Assembly (NCBI GenBank): GCA_009733575.1
Contig: ML769595.1
Location: 56,597-120,596 of the forward strand
Source: Gymnopus androsaceus JB14
Lineage: Eukaryota > Basidiomycota > Agaricomycetes > Agaricales > Omphalotaceae
DNA length: 64,000 nt
Reading direction: 5' to 3'
The position numbers and the translations under genes were made by a program. Each line of letters opens with the position of its first letter. The first letter of the stretch is position 1. This document shows positions 43,369 to 56,113 of this stretch, in pieces. Below the pieces are notes generated by a model. The model did not search any database. It was not told the origin of the DNA and saw only the letters and a program-made list of their open reading frames with translations.

Positions 43369-43513
43369 AAAGCTCTTCAGTCTTGCGTTTCTAGAGGTCC
43401 AACTAAGGATTTGTCACGAGCCCTCAAGATGAAGCTAACACAGAAAAGAAATGCCGACAGACTGACAAGTGATCGCAGCAAGTATGCGCTGCGTAGTGTT
43501 CTCAAAGGACAAC

Positions 43514-44630
43514 TGTGAGACCCGGTGCACGAAACGGATCTCGAACCAACGTATCCCGAATGTCTCGCACCTAGATGTAGGTGGAGACCAAATGCGACCA
43601 CCCGGGGTAACCGTGCCGTAAGGTGGGTCTGGACAGTAGTATGAGTGTTGTACGGAACAGTACAAGCCTCAGAGGTGCAAGGAACAGTGTACGGGCCACC
43701 CGCTGACGTAATCAGGAGGAAGCGGGTGGTATTGTGGTCCGACGACCAGAAATGAGTGGGAGTGGATGGAATATGGGTGAAGGGGTGGTCCAAAAAGGTG
43801 TAATAAGTCCAAATATGGATAATGCGGATGGAATACAGCAAATGCGGATGGGAATAGCGTGAGAGCGGGTGGAATAGGGTGAAAGCGGGCGGAAATAGCG
43901 TGGGAGCGGACGGAATAGTGCAAAAGCGGACGGAAATAGCGTGGGAGTGGATGGAACAGGGTGAAAGCGGATGGGAATAGTGTGAGAGCGGATGGATTAG
44001 CGTGAGAGCGGGTGGAAATAGCGTGGGAGCGGGCGGAATTGAGTGAAAGCGGACGGTCCCAGAGGTTCTAGAGGTAGCAAAACCCAAATAGGAAGCTCCC
44101 GGGGAGCTTTGGTTGTAAAGTTGTAAACAGAGATAGAAGACAGTGAGCTCTGGACGTAGATTTGGTATCTATGGACAGAGCCTCGCAGTTAATGCAGATG
44201 ACAGTGGGCCTTCGAACGGAGCTCGGAAGGCACAGCTGGTTAGAACAGATAGAAATAGAGAGACAGAGACAGAGACAGAGCAAAACAGGATTGATTCGGT
44301 AACAATGGTAATAACAGACTAGGGTGCATGGACTCGGGGTGTCTACTTATATACTGTAGGGTGGCTGTGTAAGTTGTCGGGAGGGCCTGATGGATGGTTA
44401 TCAAGTGCGGGAGGCACCCGGGAGGCAGGATAAGTGGTAATCACATGTAGAAAGTGCCCGGCAGGCAGGATAAATGGTAAATAAGCATGGAAAGCGCCCG
44501 CAATGTAGGTAATGAGTGCAGGAAGTATCTGCGGATGGTCAGGAAGCGTGGGAAGTATCCGCGGACGGCCAGGAAGCGTGGGAAACATCAGCGGGTGGAT
44601 AGCGGATGAGAAATGAGCCAAGGCCTGACA
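43514..44630 (-). repeat. 3' LTR (1117 bp)
   Basis: It is the partner of 52988-54104. It has a TATATAAG box on the minus strand (about 44350) and many GGGTGGAATAG / GCGGATGGA short repeats at about 43840-44060, which create overlapping long ORFs that are not genes. Confidence 0.92.
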
Positions 44631-44645
44631 TTATCCCCCCTTTAA
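44631..44645 (-). promoter_or_regulatory. Polypurine tract of the LTR element
   Basis: On the minus strand TTTAAAGGGGGGATAA directly precedes the 3' LTR start TGTCAGG. This fixes the orientation of the element. Confidence 0.8.
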
Positions 44646-45096
44646 AACCAGTGCCCCAAAGATATGTGACAACTGTAAGTGAACAAAAGATGAAAAACAC
44701 GCAAAGTCTCCAGCATGAAAGGTAAAGTATACTTCGTAAATTTGAAATAGTAAAAGTAAAAGGATTGGGAGGGTGCAAGGGAGCATTGAAACAAAAGAAA
44801 ACAGAGAAATGTATGTTGCTCACAAGGATATCCCTTCCCAGTTGAACCATTTCGGAGTTTGGAGTCATCATCCTCCAACTCGTCACCCAGTGGTTCCTCA
44901 TCGGACTTCATCAACATACCGCTTCCGAGCTTTGAAGCTCATCACCCAACGGTTTCTCATCAATACGCCACTTCGAACCTTAAACCACCATCCGTTTGAA
45001 GGTTGTCAACCCGTGGCCTCTTCACTGAAGATTTTGCTGAGACCTCTAACCCCACTACACCATCTGCCACACCTTTCCATTCAACTCCTCATAGTA

Positions 45097-45763
45097 CTAA
45101 CCACTCGTAATATCATCTTCTTCATCTTCATCTTCCCCACCCTCATCATCTTCTACTTCCTCCTCATATTCACCATCATCAAAATCCTTCTCCAACTCCC
45201 AATCATCCGCTAAGAACTGATCTCCCTCTGGTACATCTTCATCTCCGAGATCACTTGGGGGGCCTTCTGACCCAAAGTCAAAAACTGCGTGATGAATGGC
45301 AGGTGACTTGGGAGGCAGCAGAGGCCATTCGTTGTTGTCCAGATCACTGGGTGGATCCTGCGAGCCAAATTCAAAAACCGCATGATGAATTTCAGGAGAT
45401 TCAGGTGGAGGGGTAGGTGCTCGGGAAGACTGTGGTGGTTCATCATCATTGTCATAGTCATATTGTCGTCCTGTAGTGGTCCGCAAGGATGACTCATGAA
45501 AAGCGGACGGAAAAGCGGATGGGAAAGCGGGTGGGAAAGCGGATGGAAAAGCAGACGGAAAAGCAGATGCGGAAGCAGACAGAGATTTCAGTTGAAAAGA
45601 TGACACTGAAGAAATAGCCCGCTGAATTTTTTCCTCCTCCCAAACTGCCTCCGTCAGCTGGTAAACATACGCTATGCCATTCCAGGTCAGAGACCACATC
45701 CGCAGGGGTGCTGCAGGTTCCTGAAAATTTCCCAAAAGGCACTGTACAAGCCAAAGAAAGTTG
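45097..45763 (-). CDS. LTR-element ORF, C-terminal part
   Basis: It is the downstream half of the ORF that starts at 52902. From the insertion point it reads NFLWLVQCLLGNFQEPAAPL, LTWNGIAYVYQLTEAVWEEE, then a repetitive SAFPSAFP stretch, two copies of HHAVF(E/D)FGS..PPSDL, and a very acidic tail (DDGEYEEEVEDDEGGED). Its frame is continuous with the N-terminal half when 45764-52378 is removed. Gag-like function is only inferred from position as the sole ORF of an LTR element. I see no zinc knuckle. Confidence 0.7.
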
Positions 45764-46202
45764 GCGTAGACTTAGGTTCGGATCAAGCCCCGATCACTCC
45801 GCATCCCTTTTGGGATCTTGTTTGGTGAACAAAAAAAGCTTCGTAGAAGGGGCTTTTATCAAACTCCGGAAATTGGGGGGGTGGTTTTTGGCCTCGTCGA
45901 GCTCGCTCTTTTCCGTTTCTCAATATTTATTGGTGAGCAAGCTATTATCTTGATACAAGATAGATGATTGACCTACCAAATTTTTCAATAGGTTATCTCA
46001 ATATTAAGATATCGCGTCATCTTTCTGCGCCTCAAAACCGTGAACTCGCGCTTTTGAAGCATCATAATTTCAACGACACTGCTATGTGAGTCTCTGAGCT
46101 TCTTGGATATGGACAATAGGATGCTAATGAACACTCTTAGCACATTTTGACACTCTTTATCACGTCCACTCTAGCTCGAGAACGTTGTCACTGCGCCAGA
46201 AT

Positions 46203-48804
46203 ATGGCCACTCCTTGTACTCCTCCCAGACCAACTCTCCCTCTTGGAAACAATAACAATCGTTCTCCAGGGACCCCTAGACGTCGAAAATCTCCGAAAAA
46301 GCGTACATGGACCCAACCACAGCTGCTGTCAGTCCCCGAACTCAAGAAAACGTTGAAGGCAAAACTCGCGTTGAAATTCATGCCCGAGGATTGGCAGGCC
46401 CATCTCATCAGCTGTGTTTTTGGTGGATACGATGCGATATTCTGCGCTGGCACTGGCTATGGTAAGAGCCTTATCTTTGAGGGTCTGGCTGCGTTGGGCG
46501 GAAAGAATAAGCTGGTGATGGTGATTTGCCCTCTGAAGTCATTAGAGCTGGACCAAGTATGTTCTATTGCTTCTCACTATACTTATTGATGTTCTAACTG
46601 TCAAACCCTATCCTATAGGCAAAGTCTGCATCGGCGAAAGGTCTCGAGGCTATCGCAATCAACAAAGATACAATGAGAACTGCTGGCCTTTGGGCGCGTG
46701 CTCAAAATTCCGCTCAGCTGGTGTATCTCTCACCCGAGATGGTACTATCTGATAGCTTTTCAAAGCTGTGGAAGGACACAAAATTTCGGAGGCGTCTCAC
46801 TGCTGTTGTCATTGATGAGGCCCACTGTGTCGATGAATGGGGCGGTGATGACTTTCGTCCCAAATATCAGAAGTTGGATTGGCTCCATGCATTCACAGGG
46901 AAGGAGATTCCTTTTGTCGCGTGTACTGCGACGTGCCAGACCCGGACATTCAATACAATCTGGGATACATTGGGGTATGGTGCTCGGCCATTCTGGGGGG
47001 TTGATGTTGGTGTCAACCGTCCGAATCTCCTCTTCCTTGTTCGTGCTATTCAAAACTCAAAAAACCCTGTGATCGATATCTTAAACATTCTTCCTGACAA
47101 ACTCGACTCATCTACGCAACTCGAGGATCTCGATAACTCGATACTATACTTCGACTCAAAAACCGCATGTCATAAAGCGGTGGATACTCTTCGAAAGTGT
47201 TTACCATCTCATCTGCAGTCCGCGGTCTATGCGTTTTCAGCAAATCTTTCCCCTAGTGCGAAGGAAAGATGCTGGAATCGCTTTGCAGAGGGTACATATC
47301 GTATCCTCTGTGCAACCGATGCCGCAGGTATGGGTTGTGATGTCCCAGATGTGAAGAACATCATCTCTTTTGGGTGTCCGAATGCATTTGCCTCAGTTAT
47401 TCAACGCTGGGGCCATGCTGGTCGCGATCGGACAACTCAAGGTACCTGTCTTCTGCTGGTGCCGCCATGGGCATTTCGACCTGAAGTACCGCTGAACCCG
47501 GTCTTACAACGTGTACAAGGGAAGTCAGCAGGTGCAGAGAGCAAGGCTGACACAGTCAAGCGCTCGAACATGGACAAGAAGTTGGAGGAGTTTGTCAACC
47601 TTACGCATGTATCGAAAGATCGTAAGTCCATGCGCTATGACAAACTGATATTTATTCTGATATTTCTTGCCCAGCGTGTTTGCATCGATATGTTCGCGAG
47701 TCATTCCGACCAGATACTAAACTCACAGTGCAGTCTGGCTTCGACAATGACACAGTTGTTAAATCGGGCCCGCGTTCGACTGGCTCACCGTTTGATCTTT
47801 CTTGGACAGTGGTTGACCTACCAAACAGGACTGCACTGACGACCCAATGCTGCCAGCATTGTAACCAGGAATTGGGTGCTACTTGTCTTCCTCCTGTTGA
47901 TGCTGCTGATCCTCACTTGTCCGCATTTGCAAGTGACTTTTTATTTCCACTCGTAACTGCTCCAACACCACCATCGCGACCTGCCTCTGTAGCTTCTTTC
48001 ACCTCAGATGCTAGTGTGGCGACTGCGAATACCTTTATTCCCATCAGCAAAGGCTTCAAACTTCCAAAGGAACATCGAGAGCATCTTAGAAGCTTGCTTA
48101 TGATGTGGAGAGAAAAGCGCTGGGAAGAGAAGGGTGCTCCAAGCCTTATGTTGCCGGCGTTTATCCTTCCTCCAGCTCAACTCGACACTCTTGCTAAATC
48201 CTGTGAGCGCTTTCTCACTCAGGGTACTGTGACCGCAAACCTCATTCGACGCGTTGTCAAGTGGGATATGGCATTGGTAGAGGACCTTGCTCAAGTCAGT
48301 GACCTCATCACCACTTGGAGAGAAGGTATTAGCGTATCGCGAACACCAAAGTCTGTTCGACATACTGATAAACAATGGAAAATGGGGTCTCTTGTGGTGA
48401 ATCCAATTCCTCAGCCGGTCTTCTTGCCTATGACTATGTCTGTTCCATCTTCGAATGGTGCAATTGACGTTTTTGGTACACCTACCCCTACCCCTACTAG
48501 AAGCCAAAGCCCTGCATCACCTTCCTCACATTATCGCTACCAGGTACATGAACAATCGCCATCCAGGCATCATGTAGCTGCACAATCTCCACACCATCCT
48601 CATCCTCTGCCTTCTTCAAGTCATTACCAACCTCAGGCCCGTTATGACCAACCAACTATTCGGCAACCTGATTTCCGCGCTGTCACCCAGCCCCAGGACC
48701 TTGTCTCGCATCCTTCACCACTGCGACCAAGCTCAACCTTTCATCGCTCAGTCCCAGCCAACTACACTCCGGTGCAAACTGGGTCGCGTACACACATGAA
48801 TTGA
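46203..48804 (+). CDS. RecQ-like superfamily 2 DNA helicase (828 aa, three exons)
   Basis: The first ATG is 46203. Exons are 46203-46556, 46619-47621 and 47675-48804, with GTATGT..TATAG and GTAAGT..CCCAG introns in consistent phase. After a basic Pro-rich N-terminus come helicase motifs: I GTGYGKS (residues about 85-91), II VIDEAHCVDEWG, III ACTATC, IV ILYFDSKTAC, V ILCATDAAGMGCDVP and VI QRWGHAGRDR. These are diagnostic of RecQ helicases, which unwind DNA 3' to 5' using ATP. A CCQHCNQ pair of cysteines follows, but no full RQC zinc module, and the C-terminal 300 residues are Pro/Ser/His-rich. The gene is intact and lies inside the transposon, convergent with the DUF6589 gene, so it probably acts in transposition. 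Confidence 0.9.
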
Positions 48805-49039
48805 GGTTATACACCGCAAATGCAGTACATATATCCATCCCAATACCCTCCACAATCTTCTTCCTACATACCCTACACACCCTCGCAGGCCAATCATTCC
48901 AACTTCACAAACGAAACTCCGAATACCATGTCTTCCTACACACCCTATACACCCTTGTACTCACAAGCCAATGATTCCAGTTTCATAAACAAAACTCCGA
49001 ATACCATGTATAATCGTTTCAATAATACTTAATATATAA

Positions 49040-51917
49040 TCAAAGTTCTACTTCATCTCCTGTATGGAACTCGCCTCCTCCTCCTAAGCCTCCTCCTTCC
49101 TCGCCATCGCCATGAATATCATGAAAGCCATCCGTCAACAATGGATTCACATGCAAAGTGTCGAATATTGTGCCATTGTCTAACTGTGTGTCCCGTTCAC
49201 TTCTCTCTCCAATAGGGTATCTCACAGCTGGATCGTAAGTTGTCGATTGAATGAAGTCATTGAAGCTGCTACCCCACATCGACATTCCATTGTCAAAGGT
49301 ATCAAAGATAGCAGAGTTATCGCCTGAGGCTACTTGCGTCTTCTTTTTCTTCTTTGCCACCTGTATTGGTTCAATGATGCGCTCTCGGAGTTCCTTGTGC
49401 AACCAAACTGCGGGACTCTCCATGCCTTCAATCAAGACCCTCATGTCCTCGGCAAAGGCTACCTCTTTGGAATGTCAACTACGGTCTGGGTTGCCGAAAA
49501 AGTTTGCAACTAGGTGAGAAACATCTCGAAACAACTCTATGCATGCTGATCCTTTGGCAATGATATACTCTACAGTGACACCATTACCAGATGCGATGTA
49601 TACTTGCTACGCAAGTACATTTGGATCAGTCTTACACTGACATCCCAAGTTGCAACTTACCTTTACCCAGAAATTAAGCTGCTCAAGATAGAGATCGTAG
49701 GCTATGAAGCGACCCGGTAGCCCCCACCGATTGAAAAACCAACAACGTTCCAATACTGCGCGCTGAGCATCAGTGGTCTCATACTTCCATTTGACCAAAA
49801 TCTCGGCACATTCACGCGCATAGTTGTGTTGGCCAACACCACGGAAAGAATGGCACCAGTACTTCAGTACGCGAATGATACGACCTGCATCTGCGTATGC
49901 TACTCCATCTTCAAAGGCTAGGAAGACCAACGCGTCTCGAATGAAATAGATGTCATGTGCTGCATAATCATCTTTAGCATCCTTGGCTTTTCGCGCTGCC
50001 GTTGCTGTTGCATAAGACTTCCGAATTTCTTTGGCCAAACGGAGAACTTCTTCGAGGGACTTGGGTGTCCATGATTGTAATTGTGAGTATTTCGTGAACT
50101 TGTTCTTGACCCTATATTCATTATTAATACATTTCCAAATAGACAGACAAAATTACTTACATGACAATGTGCAGTAAACGTGCAATCAGTGAATGCCGAA
50201 TCAATGACTTTGCAGCTGCATATTTTGGTTTCTCCACATCCCATTTACGGCCAAGAAGACCTTTGTGAGCTGCAAGACTAGTGGGATCGGACACAGCATG
50301 ACCGTAATGTGCACGCATATTCATGTGAGTGGCTTGCAATGCAAAGTGAAAGAGTTGGCTGAGTTCATCAGCATAGTCGATCCGTTCCATGCTGTTGATA
50401 TCATCTGCTCGATCGCGACGAGAACCCCGTAGATTGTTCGAGGTCAACCAGTCACCAAGAATGGCACGAACTTTGGCCGAGAACTCTTCCTCCGATAAGG
50501 TTGAACGTTCTCTGATTGCTTCCAACACCTCAACAATGCCTACTTTAGACCCCTCATTAACATCAAAGACACCGAAAGGACGTGCGTCCGACTTTTTGGG
50601 AGGAAGGGGTCGATCTCGAGGCATGAGTTCCGTTATTTTCTTGAGCATTTCTTTACGCTGTTTCCAGGACCTGCTTCCGGGAGCATAAGAAACAATGATC
50701 TCTGCTATAAGATGGTCAAAAATGCGTTCCATATGTTCGTTATCTTCAGGGGTGGGTAGGATATCGTCAAAGGTAGCGGTGTGGCGTCCTCCTCGTTTGT
50801 CCAGCTTGGCTTGTAGGTCAAGCGCCGCATCTACGTCAATGCCCTTGGTGTCAACTCCGACAATAGCCACATTGGTTGCATGGATCATGGAATTATGGTT
50901 CGTAACACGTTGACTATGTTTCCGGAGGAATATATTGATATTGTCGAAGATGATTGCCCAAATCCCAGTAGCGAGCATGAGCGTAATTGCGAGTTCAATG
51001 GCGTCATCTGAGATTCGCTTCTTTAGCCGTTCAATTGTCATGGCCGAGACTGACAGTCCAATGTTGCTAAGAACCGAAAGCACTCGTGAGCTTGCACCAT
51101 TGGTTTTGAAGAACAGGCCTAGGACAAGTTGCAATGCATTGCTCGCCCGATTGTTCACAAATACAAGTATGCTGATTGCAACCATTACTGCCTATGCAGC
51201 AAGGTGAGTATTCAAAGTTGAAGTTTGGCTGATATTACATACAATCATAGGATCCCTTGCAAAGCCTTCTGGAATAAAAGACCCTTGTGAGCGACCACTA
51301 TCATCGAGAACATTGGGATCATCATCCCAGTCCGAACTGGAATCTTCTTTAGTAGATGGTTGATTTGATTTGGCCTTCTTTCGCTCCAGTTTTGTACGGT
51401 GCTGATTGGGATTGAGTGTAAATTCCGTGAGTATGTTCCACATGAATGGTGCAAGCTCCTTATACATGCTGATGATTTTCGAAGGGTGGAGAATGTCCCG
51501 AATACCTGCAATTGTCAAACTATGAAGCTTTATCTTCAAACTTGCTTCCTCTGTTAATTTGCGGCACTCCTTCCTGGCTTGTCGGCAAGCAACTCCCTCT
51601 ATCATCTTTTCAACTCCCGAATCCTGTGATTTAGGAAATCGTTTGGGATCTGACCAGATATTGAAGATTTGAGCAGGGAAAAACTGGTTCTGGAAGGTGA
51701 GTCCTGAAGGCCTGTAAGTCATGTAGACATTGACCCTATCTTGAACCGGCTGTATATTGCTCGAGAAGATGAAGAATAGGAATTTGCTCAGACTGAGCTG
51801 CAAGAAAATGATGAGGGAAAAGACAAGGTGAAACTTTTGCTTTAGATTGAGTTTATGCATCTCTGAGGGCAATGTCTGTTGCCAGAAAGTATTGTTGTAG
51901 GCAAGCGTTGAATCCAT
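49040..51917 (-). pseudogene. DUF6589 protein (putative transposase), one premature stop
   Basis: Exons are 51917-51243, 51191-50161, 50111-49661 and 49606-49040, all with GT-AG borders in phase. The N-terminal part has TIAGIRDILHPSKIISMYKE and a charged linker. The core reads AISILVFVNNRASNALQLVLG, IWAIIFDNINIFLRKHSQRV, LFHFALQATHMNMRAHYGHA, YADAGRIIRVLKYWCHSFRG, NYARECAEILV and LPGRFIAYDLYLEQLNFWVK, the pattern of Pfam DUF6589. TGA at 49477-49475 interrupts DRS-HSKEVAFAEDM, after which the frame stays open to 49040 with an acidic, Gly-rich tail. The size without the stop is 907 residues. DUF6589 has no proven activity; a transposase role is inferred from its place in the element. The true start may differ, because an insertion lies 28 bp upstream. 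Confidence 0.85.
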
Positions 51918-51944
51918 AGGCCCCTATTCGTATCAGCGCGCCTC

Positions 51945-52317
51945 TTGTAACATCTGTGACTTTTCATGACATTTGCATCCTCCTTCATCGAAATTTCATT
52001 GCAAGCTGTTCTGCCTTCTCCGGCACTTTAAAAACTTGTGCCCCATTTCAATCTACCCTTCCTTCATGTCTATGCCCACTGCCATAATTAAAAAATAAAA
52101 ATATTTATAAAATCAAGCTCAATTTTGTTTTGCGCTGTGATGCAACTCGCTCGATGCATAGTAAGGGAAGAAATTGAGATATTAAGATTCTAAGTAGCTG
52201 AGGGCCTTCAGATGCATCTCAGGTAGATACTTACTCTATACAAGTCAAGGGAATACAAAGTATATAACGGGTTATTGAGGGTTGATTCACCCCCTCTTAT
52301 TTCGGAGTTTGTTACAA
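51945..52317. mobile_element. 373-bp insertion inside the transposon (MITE or solo LTR)
   Basis: The ends TTGTAACA and TGTTACAA are inverted repeats, and GCCTC (51940-51944 and 52318-52322) is duplicated at both sides. The exact duplication could be 5 to 7 bases because GCCTCTT occurs on both sides. The interior has a TATATA box, so a solo LTR is also possible. It separates the DUF6589 start from the end of the host transposon, so it may affect its promoter. Confidence 0.7.
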
Positions 52318-52378
52318 GCCTCTTCTGACGAAGGATCACCCGTTACCGGGCCGGAGCGAAGGGCTTGCTCCGAACCTA

Positions 52379-52902
52379 GCGTAGACTGTAGGTGATGAAA
52401 GTCTTGCCCGCAATTCCTGACTTGCAGATCTCCAACGAGTTTTCCCCAGTACCCGTAGGATGTGCACATAATACCCAGGCTGCTCCTCCAGTGTAACCGC
52501 CACACCCAACTGTCCCAGGCATTCCCAAGCTGCTGCACCTGCTGACTGCCAAGTCGGTTGGTAGTACCTAACCATATGCCAATACGCAATGGCAGCTGGT
52601 CCCATTGGGTGGGGAGTGAGAGGGGAGAGTGGGTCCACATCACCTAAAAGATGAGTGGAACGCCACTCGTGAAGGTCAGGCACCCAATTGTGAGTTGCCC
52701 GCAGTACTTGACGGTTCCCAGAAATGGGTCGTACAGTGTGACCACCAGTGTGATTGAGGTCATGTGAAGGGGACGGATGGTAGGCAGGATGACCTGGATG
52801 CAATTGTGGCCGTGTAGACCATGGGATAGGAGGAGGCGGACGACCCTTAGCATTTGACAGTCGTACTTGGCCAGGAAGTGGGGCGGAAGAGTGGAAATTC
52901 AT
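52379..52902 (-). CDS. LTR-element ORF, N-terminal part
   Basis: From ATG 52902 (MNFHSSAPLPGQVRLSN) the frame is Pro/His-rich, then reads WVPDLHEWRSTHLLGDVDP, AIAYWHMVRYYQPTWQSAG and ECLGQLGVAVTLEEQPGYY, up to SSPTVYA where the DNA transposon starts. Beyond this point the visible ORF tail is transposon sequence. The joined ORF has 396 residues. I recognise no domain. The position and lack of other ORFs suggest a structural (Gag-like) protein. Confidence 0.7.
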
Positions 52903-52987
52903 AACAAAGACAAAACACACCAATTACTAAACCACAACTCGAATCACAACACTTGAAAACTGTCCGCGACCAATGAGTCTGTTATTT

Positions 52988-54104
52988 TGTGAGACCCGGT
53001 GCACGAAACGGATCTCGAACCAACGTATCCCGAATGTCTCGCACCTAGATGTAGGTGGAGACCAAATGCGACCACCCGGGGTAACCGTGCCGTAAGGTGG
53101 GTCTGGACAGTAGTATGAGTGTTGTACGGAACAGTACAAGCCTCAGAGGTGCAAGGAACAGTGTACGGGCCACCCGCTGACATAATCAGGAGGAAGCGGG
53201 TGGTATTGTGGTCCGACGACCAGAAATGAGTGGGAGTGGATGGAATATGGGTGAAGGGGTGGTCCAAAAAGGTGTAATAAGTCCAAATATGGATAATGCG
53301 GATGGAATACAGCAAATGCGGATGGGAATAGCGTGAGAGCGGGTGGAATAGGGTGAAAGCGGGCGGAAATAGCGTGGGAGCGGACGGAATAGTGCAAAAG
53401 CGGACGGAAATAGCGTGGGAGTGGATGGAACAGGGTGAAAGCGGATGGGAATAGTGTGAGAGCGGATGGATTAGCGTGAGAGCGGGTGGAAATAGCGTGG
53501 GAGCGGGCGGAATTGAGTGAAAGCGGACGGTCCCAGAGGTTCTAGAGGTAGCAAAACCCAAATAGGAAGCTCCCGGGGAGCTTTGGTTGTAAAGTTGTAA
53601 ACAGAGATAGAAGACAGTGAGCTCTGGACGTAGATTTGGTATCTATGGACAGAGCCTCGCAGTTAATGCAGATGACAGTGGGCCTTCGAACGGAGCTCGG
53701 AAGGCACAGCTGGTTAGAACAGATAGAAATAGAGAGACAGAGACAGAGACAGAGCAAAACAGGATTGATTCGGTAACAATGGTAATAACAGACTAGGGTG
53801 CATGGACTCGGGGTGTCTACTTATATACTGTAGGGTGGCTGTGTAAGTTGTCGGGAGGGCCTGATGGATGGTTATCAAGTGCGGGAGGCACCCGGGAGGC
53901 AGGATAAGTGGTAATCACATGTAGAAAGTGCCCGGCAGGCAGGATAAATGGTAAATAAGCATGGAAAGCGCCCGCAATGTAGGTAATGAGTGCAGGAAGT
54001 ATCTGCGGATGGTCAGGAAGCGTGGGAAGTATCCGCGGACGGCCAGGAAGCGTGGGAAACATCAGCGGGTGGATAGCGGATGAGAAATGAGCCAAGGCCT
54101 GACA
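52988..54104 (-). repeat. 5' LTR (1117 bp)
   Basis: It is the same length as 43514-44630 and appears almost identical. It carries the promoter of the minus-strand element. The adjacent internal sequence (52987 downward) starts AAATAACAGACTCATTGG; I cannot assign a primer tRNA to it. Confidence 0.92.
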
Positions 54105-55322
54105 ACAACTGGGACCAGTGATGTCCATTGCAGTTCATCCGTTAGGATCTTATGTCGCTTCTGGGGGTGAGTGCTTTATTTTGAAAAGCTAGCGAGTTCT
54201 AACGTCATTTCAAGGCGAAGAGGGCACCAAAATCTGGTACTTATCTAGTGGAAAGCTTTTAGAAACACCCACAGGAGCCTCCGATCGAGGCTATACCACG
54301 GCAATAGTGTGGATCACAAAACCTGATGATGCAGAAGAAGGGATTGCGTTTGGCACCGAGGATGGATATTTGTGCATCAGGAAAAGGAATGGAGTCAATG
54401 TTAGTCCTCAATGATGCTTCTGGATCAATATTGCTGACATATCGATTAGTTTACTGAGGTTTTCAGCAAACGTCTGACTGGAGGCGCAGAAGGCCAAGAG
54501 ATATCCTCGATGGCGTACGATCCGAGCTCAGGACACCTTGGAGTTGTACATCGCTCTGAAGCTGTACATCAGTTCATTATCAATGGAGCAATGTGGCTGA
54601 TACTGGTGAAATCGGTGGCAATTCCAAAGCACTGGCCGCAAGCAGTCGGCTTTGGACAATCTGGCGTACGCGGGCCAGAGCTTTGGAGTTTCGGAAGGGA
54701 GGATGGAGTCATGTAAGTTTTTGTTAATATTCTACAAACTGTAAACACTACTTACAGTATATGGTAGCCACATCTTGAACGATAACGGGCAGGTCCTAAA
54801 GTCCAAAGATACTGGTACTGTCATGTAAGTTGACTCAGTCATTACTGCATGAGTCTGCTAATGATGACAGAGGCCATGCCGCTATCAACATGAAGGAGGA
54901 TGTGGTCATCCTAGACGACGTATCTCAAGGCATAGCGCTCTACAAGCTTTCGGGCACAGAGAGGCTCAAGACCTTCAGCGTACCTCACAGCGAGCGCAGG
55001 TCTCGAAATGTGGCCTTCCACGATGGTGCCAGTACGGTGATCTGTGGAAGCGACCATGGAAAAGTCTACTTTTTTGACCGTCGCACTGGAAAGATCAACA
55101 ACACAATTCACGTTGGCATCAAGGAATGGGTTCAGTCAATTGCGGTAAGCAATGTTATTGACAGAGATGAGTGGGTTTCTGATTCTGCAGCAGAGCATCG
55201 AAGTGGCGGGAATTCCGCTGATTCTGGTAGGACAATCTGGCAAAAACATAGGTCAAACCGAGATTCAGGTGTGGGAGAAACTTTCGATTACTATCGTTAA
55301 GAACGATAAGAAGAGGGGGTAA

Positions 55323-55777: not shown

Positions 55778-55805
55778 GGTGGTGGTACAGATGCAAGTGC
55801 TGCAA

Positions 55806-55956
55806 AAGTTGCTTACATGATGTGTGCGTTTACTTATAGTTGCCGTTGGCCAAATTCCACAACCAAAAAGGAAGTGGGCGCTTGACACTTCCTTTTTGGT
55901 TGTGGAATTTGGCCAATGGCAACTATAAGTAAACGCACACATCATGTAAGCAACTT
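55806..55956. repeat. Long hairpin, 71-bp arms and 9-base loop
   Basis: 55806-55876 and 55886-55956 are reverse complements with one mismatch that I could find, separated by GGCGCTTGA. Weaker pairing extends outward to GGTGGTGGT (55778) and ACCACCACC (55984). It could be transcribed into a dsRNA-like hairpin, or be a short foldback transposon. The ORF reading through it on the minus strand is a by-product. Confidence 0.9.
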
Positions 55957-56113
55957 CTGCTTCGCTTGTTTTAGGACCACCACCGGTAGGGCATAACTCT
56001 TCCTCAACGACCTTTACAGTGAGTAAAAATCTTTTGCGTACAGACAAATTTTTATTCGATAGTCTACTCTGACGATTGTCTGGCTACGGGTATCAAAACT
56101 TTGGAAACAACAA

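Follow-up and report, generated by a model that had tools for sequence, protein, structure and literature searches.

A stretch of 64,000 nucleotides of the Gymnopus androsaceus JB14 genome (contig ML769595.1, positions 56,597 to 120,596; hereafter the window) carries at 45773–52378 a 6.6-kb DNA transposon, very probably of the AcademH type. Two genes lie inside it, one for a RecQ-family helicase and one for a DUF6589 protein that we propose to be the transposase. An earlier reading made from the letters alone (the sequence-only reading) had set the same bounds, and what it had observed there was confirmed as a whole.

The element and its relatives in the genome

A scan with the end pattern placed the 18-bp terminal inverted repeats at 45773–45790 (+ strand, a T variant) and 52361–52378 (− strand, a G variant), identical at 17/18 positions. 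Immediately outside them are exact 9-bp target duplication copies, GCGTAGACT, at 45764–45772 and 52379–52387. Where up to three mismatches were allowed, the pattern matched only twice in the window, both matches being the ends of the element, and shuffled sequences gave a mean of 0.13 matches.

In the 83-Mb genome, the end pattern with up to two mismatches gave 90 matches, compared with 7 for a reversed control pattern. Neighbouring + and − ends up to 30 kb apart were joined by a script, which produced 24 pairs from 48 of the 90 ends and left 42 unpaired. The 9-mers outside the paired ends were identical in 18/24 cases, had one mismatch in three and differed at 6 or 7 places in the remaining three, whereas none of 552 mispaired control comparisons were exact or within one mismatch. 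Position 5 of the exact duplications was A or T in 17/18, and the duplication of a pair on contig C67 reads by eye as 8 bp.

Ten of the pairs were 1,018–1,032 bp long, seven were 118–133 bp and one, without a duplication, was 89 bp. The others measured 1,172, 1,481, 4,508, 6,606, 13,658 and 26,523 bp. A 1-kb copy on C14 has 277 bp (90%) and 169 bp (86%) in common with the window element at the two ends, and is 97% identical to a copy on C10; a 2,194-bp stretch at 96.9% was found on C638. One of the unpaired ends is the left end of a further full element on C4 (497318–504236; 6,919 bp), which has an exact duplication, GTTCCTCTC, and both genes inside; it was missed in the pairing because its right end has three mismatches. 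The recurrence of shared ends and 9-bp duplications, on which the sequence-only reading depended, was found among the 24 pairs (18 of them with exact duplications) and in the C4 element.

The longer members differ in gene content. The 4,508-bp member on C199 has pieces of both genes, and the 13,658-bp member on C336 has, by the lists of matching stretches, the helicase only. The 26,523-bp member on C119 (8283–34805) has an exact 9-bp duplication and both genes, far apart. Its extra 20 kb are probably nested insertions rather than cargo. Among the eight open reading frames scanned there, one resembled a 2OG-Fe(II) oxygenase weakly, at a level that the Pfam cut-off excludes (E 4e-4), and another, which we take to be similar to those of the KDZ group (Kyakuja, Dileera and Zisupton), gave no match in the Pfam scan. 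Separately, the segment of C4 at ∼497–523 kb that holds the second full element seems to be repeated ∼18.1 kb further on, with the same right flank and the genes at a nearly constant offset.

Insertion into a young retroelement

The transposon lies within a young long terminal repeat (LTR) retroelement at 43514–54104, assigned to the − strand from its long frame. Its LTRs (43514–44630 and 52988–54104; 1,117 bp each) differ at one base, and comparison of the flanks showed a 5-bp duplication, ACAAC, at 43509–43513 and 54105–54109. Since the host LTRs differ at just one base, the insertion of the transposon is recent, unless gene conversion has evened the LTRs. When the element was removed together with one of the two 9-bp copies and the flanks were joined, a single frame resulted, which has 396 codons counted from its first ATG and 403 between its bounding stops.

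Empty sites, which the sequence-only reading had suggested looking for, were found in the same genome. An uninterrupted site on C152 covered 262/262 bases at 98% and contains the 9-mer once, unchanged. The match on C635 was poorer (88%), with one mismatch in the 9-mer, and an additional stretch there matched at 72% over 176 bases. Both sites are paralogous, not allelic. Elsewhere in the window, a hairpin-like inverted repeat of ∼184 bp with 89% identity was seen at 55778–55984, and an Rfam scan of the window gave no match.

The DUF6589 protein as the predicted transposase

As the sequence-only reading had described, two convergent spliced genes occupy the element; the models together contain five GT-AG introns of 49–62 bp. 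The − strand gene (49475–51917; exons 51917–51243, 51191–50161, 50111–49661 and 49606–49475) gave the Pfam match to DUF6589 (PF20231) that had been recognized by eye, spread over two exons. Its model runs for 762 residues to an in-frame TGA at 49475–49477, after which the frame stays open for 144 codons; the relatives extend ∼140 residues past this position.

In the predicted structure of the protein the catalytic core has an RNase H fold that contains a helical insertion. From an alignment of relatives we propose as catalytic residues a first D in a DN motif (codon 50943–50945; 11/11 for this position), a second D in a GD motif (50451–50453) and an E (49682–49684), which lies upstream of the TGA. 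For the E, residue E649 of protein P0003 was rejected in favour of E692 because only E692 is kept in distant lineages. The predicted fold and the conserved residues suggest that the DUF6589 protein is a DDE transposase, in support of the role first guessed for it. Foldseek by itself gave no significant match for DUF6589. In structural alignments the core with its helical insertion resembles those of hAT (Hermes), the P element, ISCth4 and Transib/RAG1 at 7–13% identity, and we claim no membership; hAT transposons duplicate 8 bp of target, and the duplication here is an exact 9 bp in 18/24 family pairs.

A search of proteins that started from an alignment of diverse DUF6589 members and was aimed at animals returned 49 matches, and those with a named organism were all mushrooms, which we take to be Agaricomycetes. 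One Ganoderma boninense DUF6589 protein (P0037) has the UniRef name ‘Sensor protein zRas’ and is probably a misannotated transposase. Three places (L111, L112 and L113, on C462, C136 and C67) belong to a distinct DUF6589 lineage, in which the second D motif is of the GDG type; they have no helicase stretch within 10 kb.

The helicase and its pairing with DUF6589

The + strand gene (46203–48804; exons 46203–46556, 46619–47621 and 47675–48804) matched Pfam DEAD and Helicase_C, and the nearest solved structures were RecQ, BLM, RECQ1, WRN and RECQ5, which bears out its identification as a RecQ-family helicase. The motifs conventionally named I to VI were all found, with motif I (Walker A) at 46449–46469 and motif II (DEAH) at 46811–46840. 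The model has 828 residues to an in-frame TGA at 48802–48804, and the frame then stays open for 75 codons, to 49029. In three relatives scanned there was no match to the RecQ zinc-binding or RQC families; past the helicase core, C, H, C, C and C are conserved in 30–35 of the 34–37 rows aligned there (46 in total).

The genome contained at least 115 DUF6589 stretches at 59 places and at least 70 helicase stretches at 58 places. A helicase stretch lay within 10 kb of 28/59 DUF6589 places, where 0.8 would be expected under even scatter. Of these pairs, 24 were convergent, four divergent and none tandem; two DUF6589 places on C24 have one helicase in common. In other species, 11 of the best 46 of 97 helicase matches sit on a contig equal in size to that of a close DUF6589 protein, in the same species every time and with consecutive locus numbers in five cases. 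This comparison covered 119 of 120 DUF6589 proteins among the matches listed, the best 120 of 179.

The sequence-only reading had further supposed that many mushroom DUF6589 and RecQ-like genes are parts of such elements. Scans of other DUF6589 lineages gave no clear bounds: none were found in 11 merged stretches. A laxer scan of the same 11 found the C4 element and, on C189, a weak candidate with an 8-bp duplication whose bounds do not include the helicase. On C601, scanned with ∼4.3 kb on either side, the one candidate was weak too, with a 7-bp duplication and a start within the helicase. With up to four mismatches allowed, 10/24 merged stretches had at least one end-like match, a count made without a chance control.

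Classification and alternative explanations

AcademH is said to be a lineage of Academ, reported by Kojima in 2020. PMC10045372 gives AcademH as encoding a helicase and making 9–10 bp duplications, and AcademX as making 3–4 bp ones; PMC10799480 places AcademH in Basidiomycota, Ascomycota and Mucoromycota. Putative non-autonomous Academ insertions are described as widespread in the mushroom Marasmius oreades in PMC8290104. The window element encodes a helicase, has an exact 9-bp duplication (as do 18/24 family pairs), lies in a basidiomycete and has a predicted DDE transposase with conserved D, D and E residues. Because the helicase and the 9-bp duplications match the published description, the element is probably an AcademH element, a kind already described, the comparison being one of descriptions. 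The AcademH-like guess of the sequence-only reading held to this extent. Its interpretation was otherwise supported as to the DNA transposon, the transposase (by predicted fold and conserved residues), the recurrence and the empty sites, but not as to an assisting helicase or the bounds of other lineages.

Several points weigh against this reading. There is no helicase stretch within 10 kb at 31/59 DUF6589 places, some of which are fragments at contig ends and some of other lineages. Among 69 DUF6589 proteins, five scattered cysteines are conserved but no cysteine cluster, whereas Academ may have a cysteine-rich zinc finger. Finally, the inverted ends taken alone are poor evidence, because two matches were reached in 3/100 shuffles at up to three mismatches.

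The first of these points favours a helicase that is a passenger, dispensable for transposition. We consider this rather unlikely, as the pairing recurs and is never tandem, and helicase and DUF6589 identities covary. The Spearman correlation of their identities to the window was 0.81 over 18 hand-picked pairs (two being copies of one duplication) and the Mantel correlation over the 11 cross-species pairs was 0.40 (p 0.013), although shared ancestry can partly explain both.

It is quite unlikely that DUF6589 is the hallmark transposase of a superfamily distinct from Academ whose DDE transposase has a conserved and needed partner in a RecQ-type helicase, and to which many ‘hypothetical’ mushroom DUF6589 and RecQ-like genes belong as parts. 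That these elements form a DDE superfamily of their own, merely resembling AcademH, is favoured by the missing cysteine cluster, but is improbable given that the combination published for AcademH, a helicase and 9-bp duplications, is present here in a basidiomycete.

Other known systems fit less well. Kolobok transposons duplicate TTAA, whereas the exact duplications in 18/24 pairs here are of 9 bp and varied in sequence. It is therefore very improbable that the element is KolobokH, a fungal Kolobok, even though KolobokH also combines a DDE transposase with a RecQ helicase and is given in PMC9587614 as known from fungi only. The KDZ and Plavaka elements are likewise DDE transposons of mushrooms, with duplications given in PMC12730594 as 8 bp for Zisupton and a Dileera family, 7 bp for Kyakuja, which is without inverted ends, 2 bp for PlavakaA and 2–5 bp for the wider CMCT clade. 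The exact family duplications, in 18/24 pairs, are of 9 bp; the C67 pair reads by eye as 8 bp. The idea of two host genes flanked by chance inverted repeats, for which the shuffles speak, can practically be dismissed in view of the empty site, the repeated family with the same ends and the duplications.

Proposed mechanism and significance

For the AcademH-type element we envisage that the DUF6589 transposase would bind the inverted ends and excise the element, by cut-and-paste, as we assume, rather than copying. The excised element would be joined to a target whose two strands have been cut with a 9-bp stagger, and repair would then give the 9-bp duplication. The helicase presumably has a role in transposition: more tentatively, it could open or remodel the DNA of the element ends or of the product of strand transfer, and it might travel with the transposase rather than being a stray host gene. 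The derivatives of ∼120 bp and ∼1 kb would be mobilised in trans.

The literature searched contained nothing on DUF6589 or PF20231. As far as that search goes, what may be new here is the tie between PF20231 and a transposase with named catalytic residues, although this protein may have been described before, under a different name, in the AcademH paper. The Pfam family, so far without an assigned function, thereby gains a predicted role and predicted catalytic residues, and it follows that many mushroom genes annotated as ‘hypothetical protein’ or ‘DNA helicase’ may be re-read as likely parts of transposons. With young copies and short derivatives at hand, the question of why a DDE transposon retains a helicase becomes testable.
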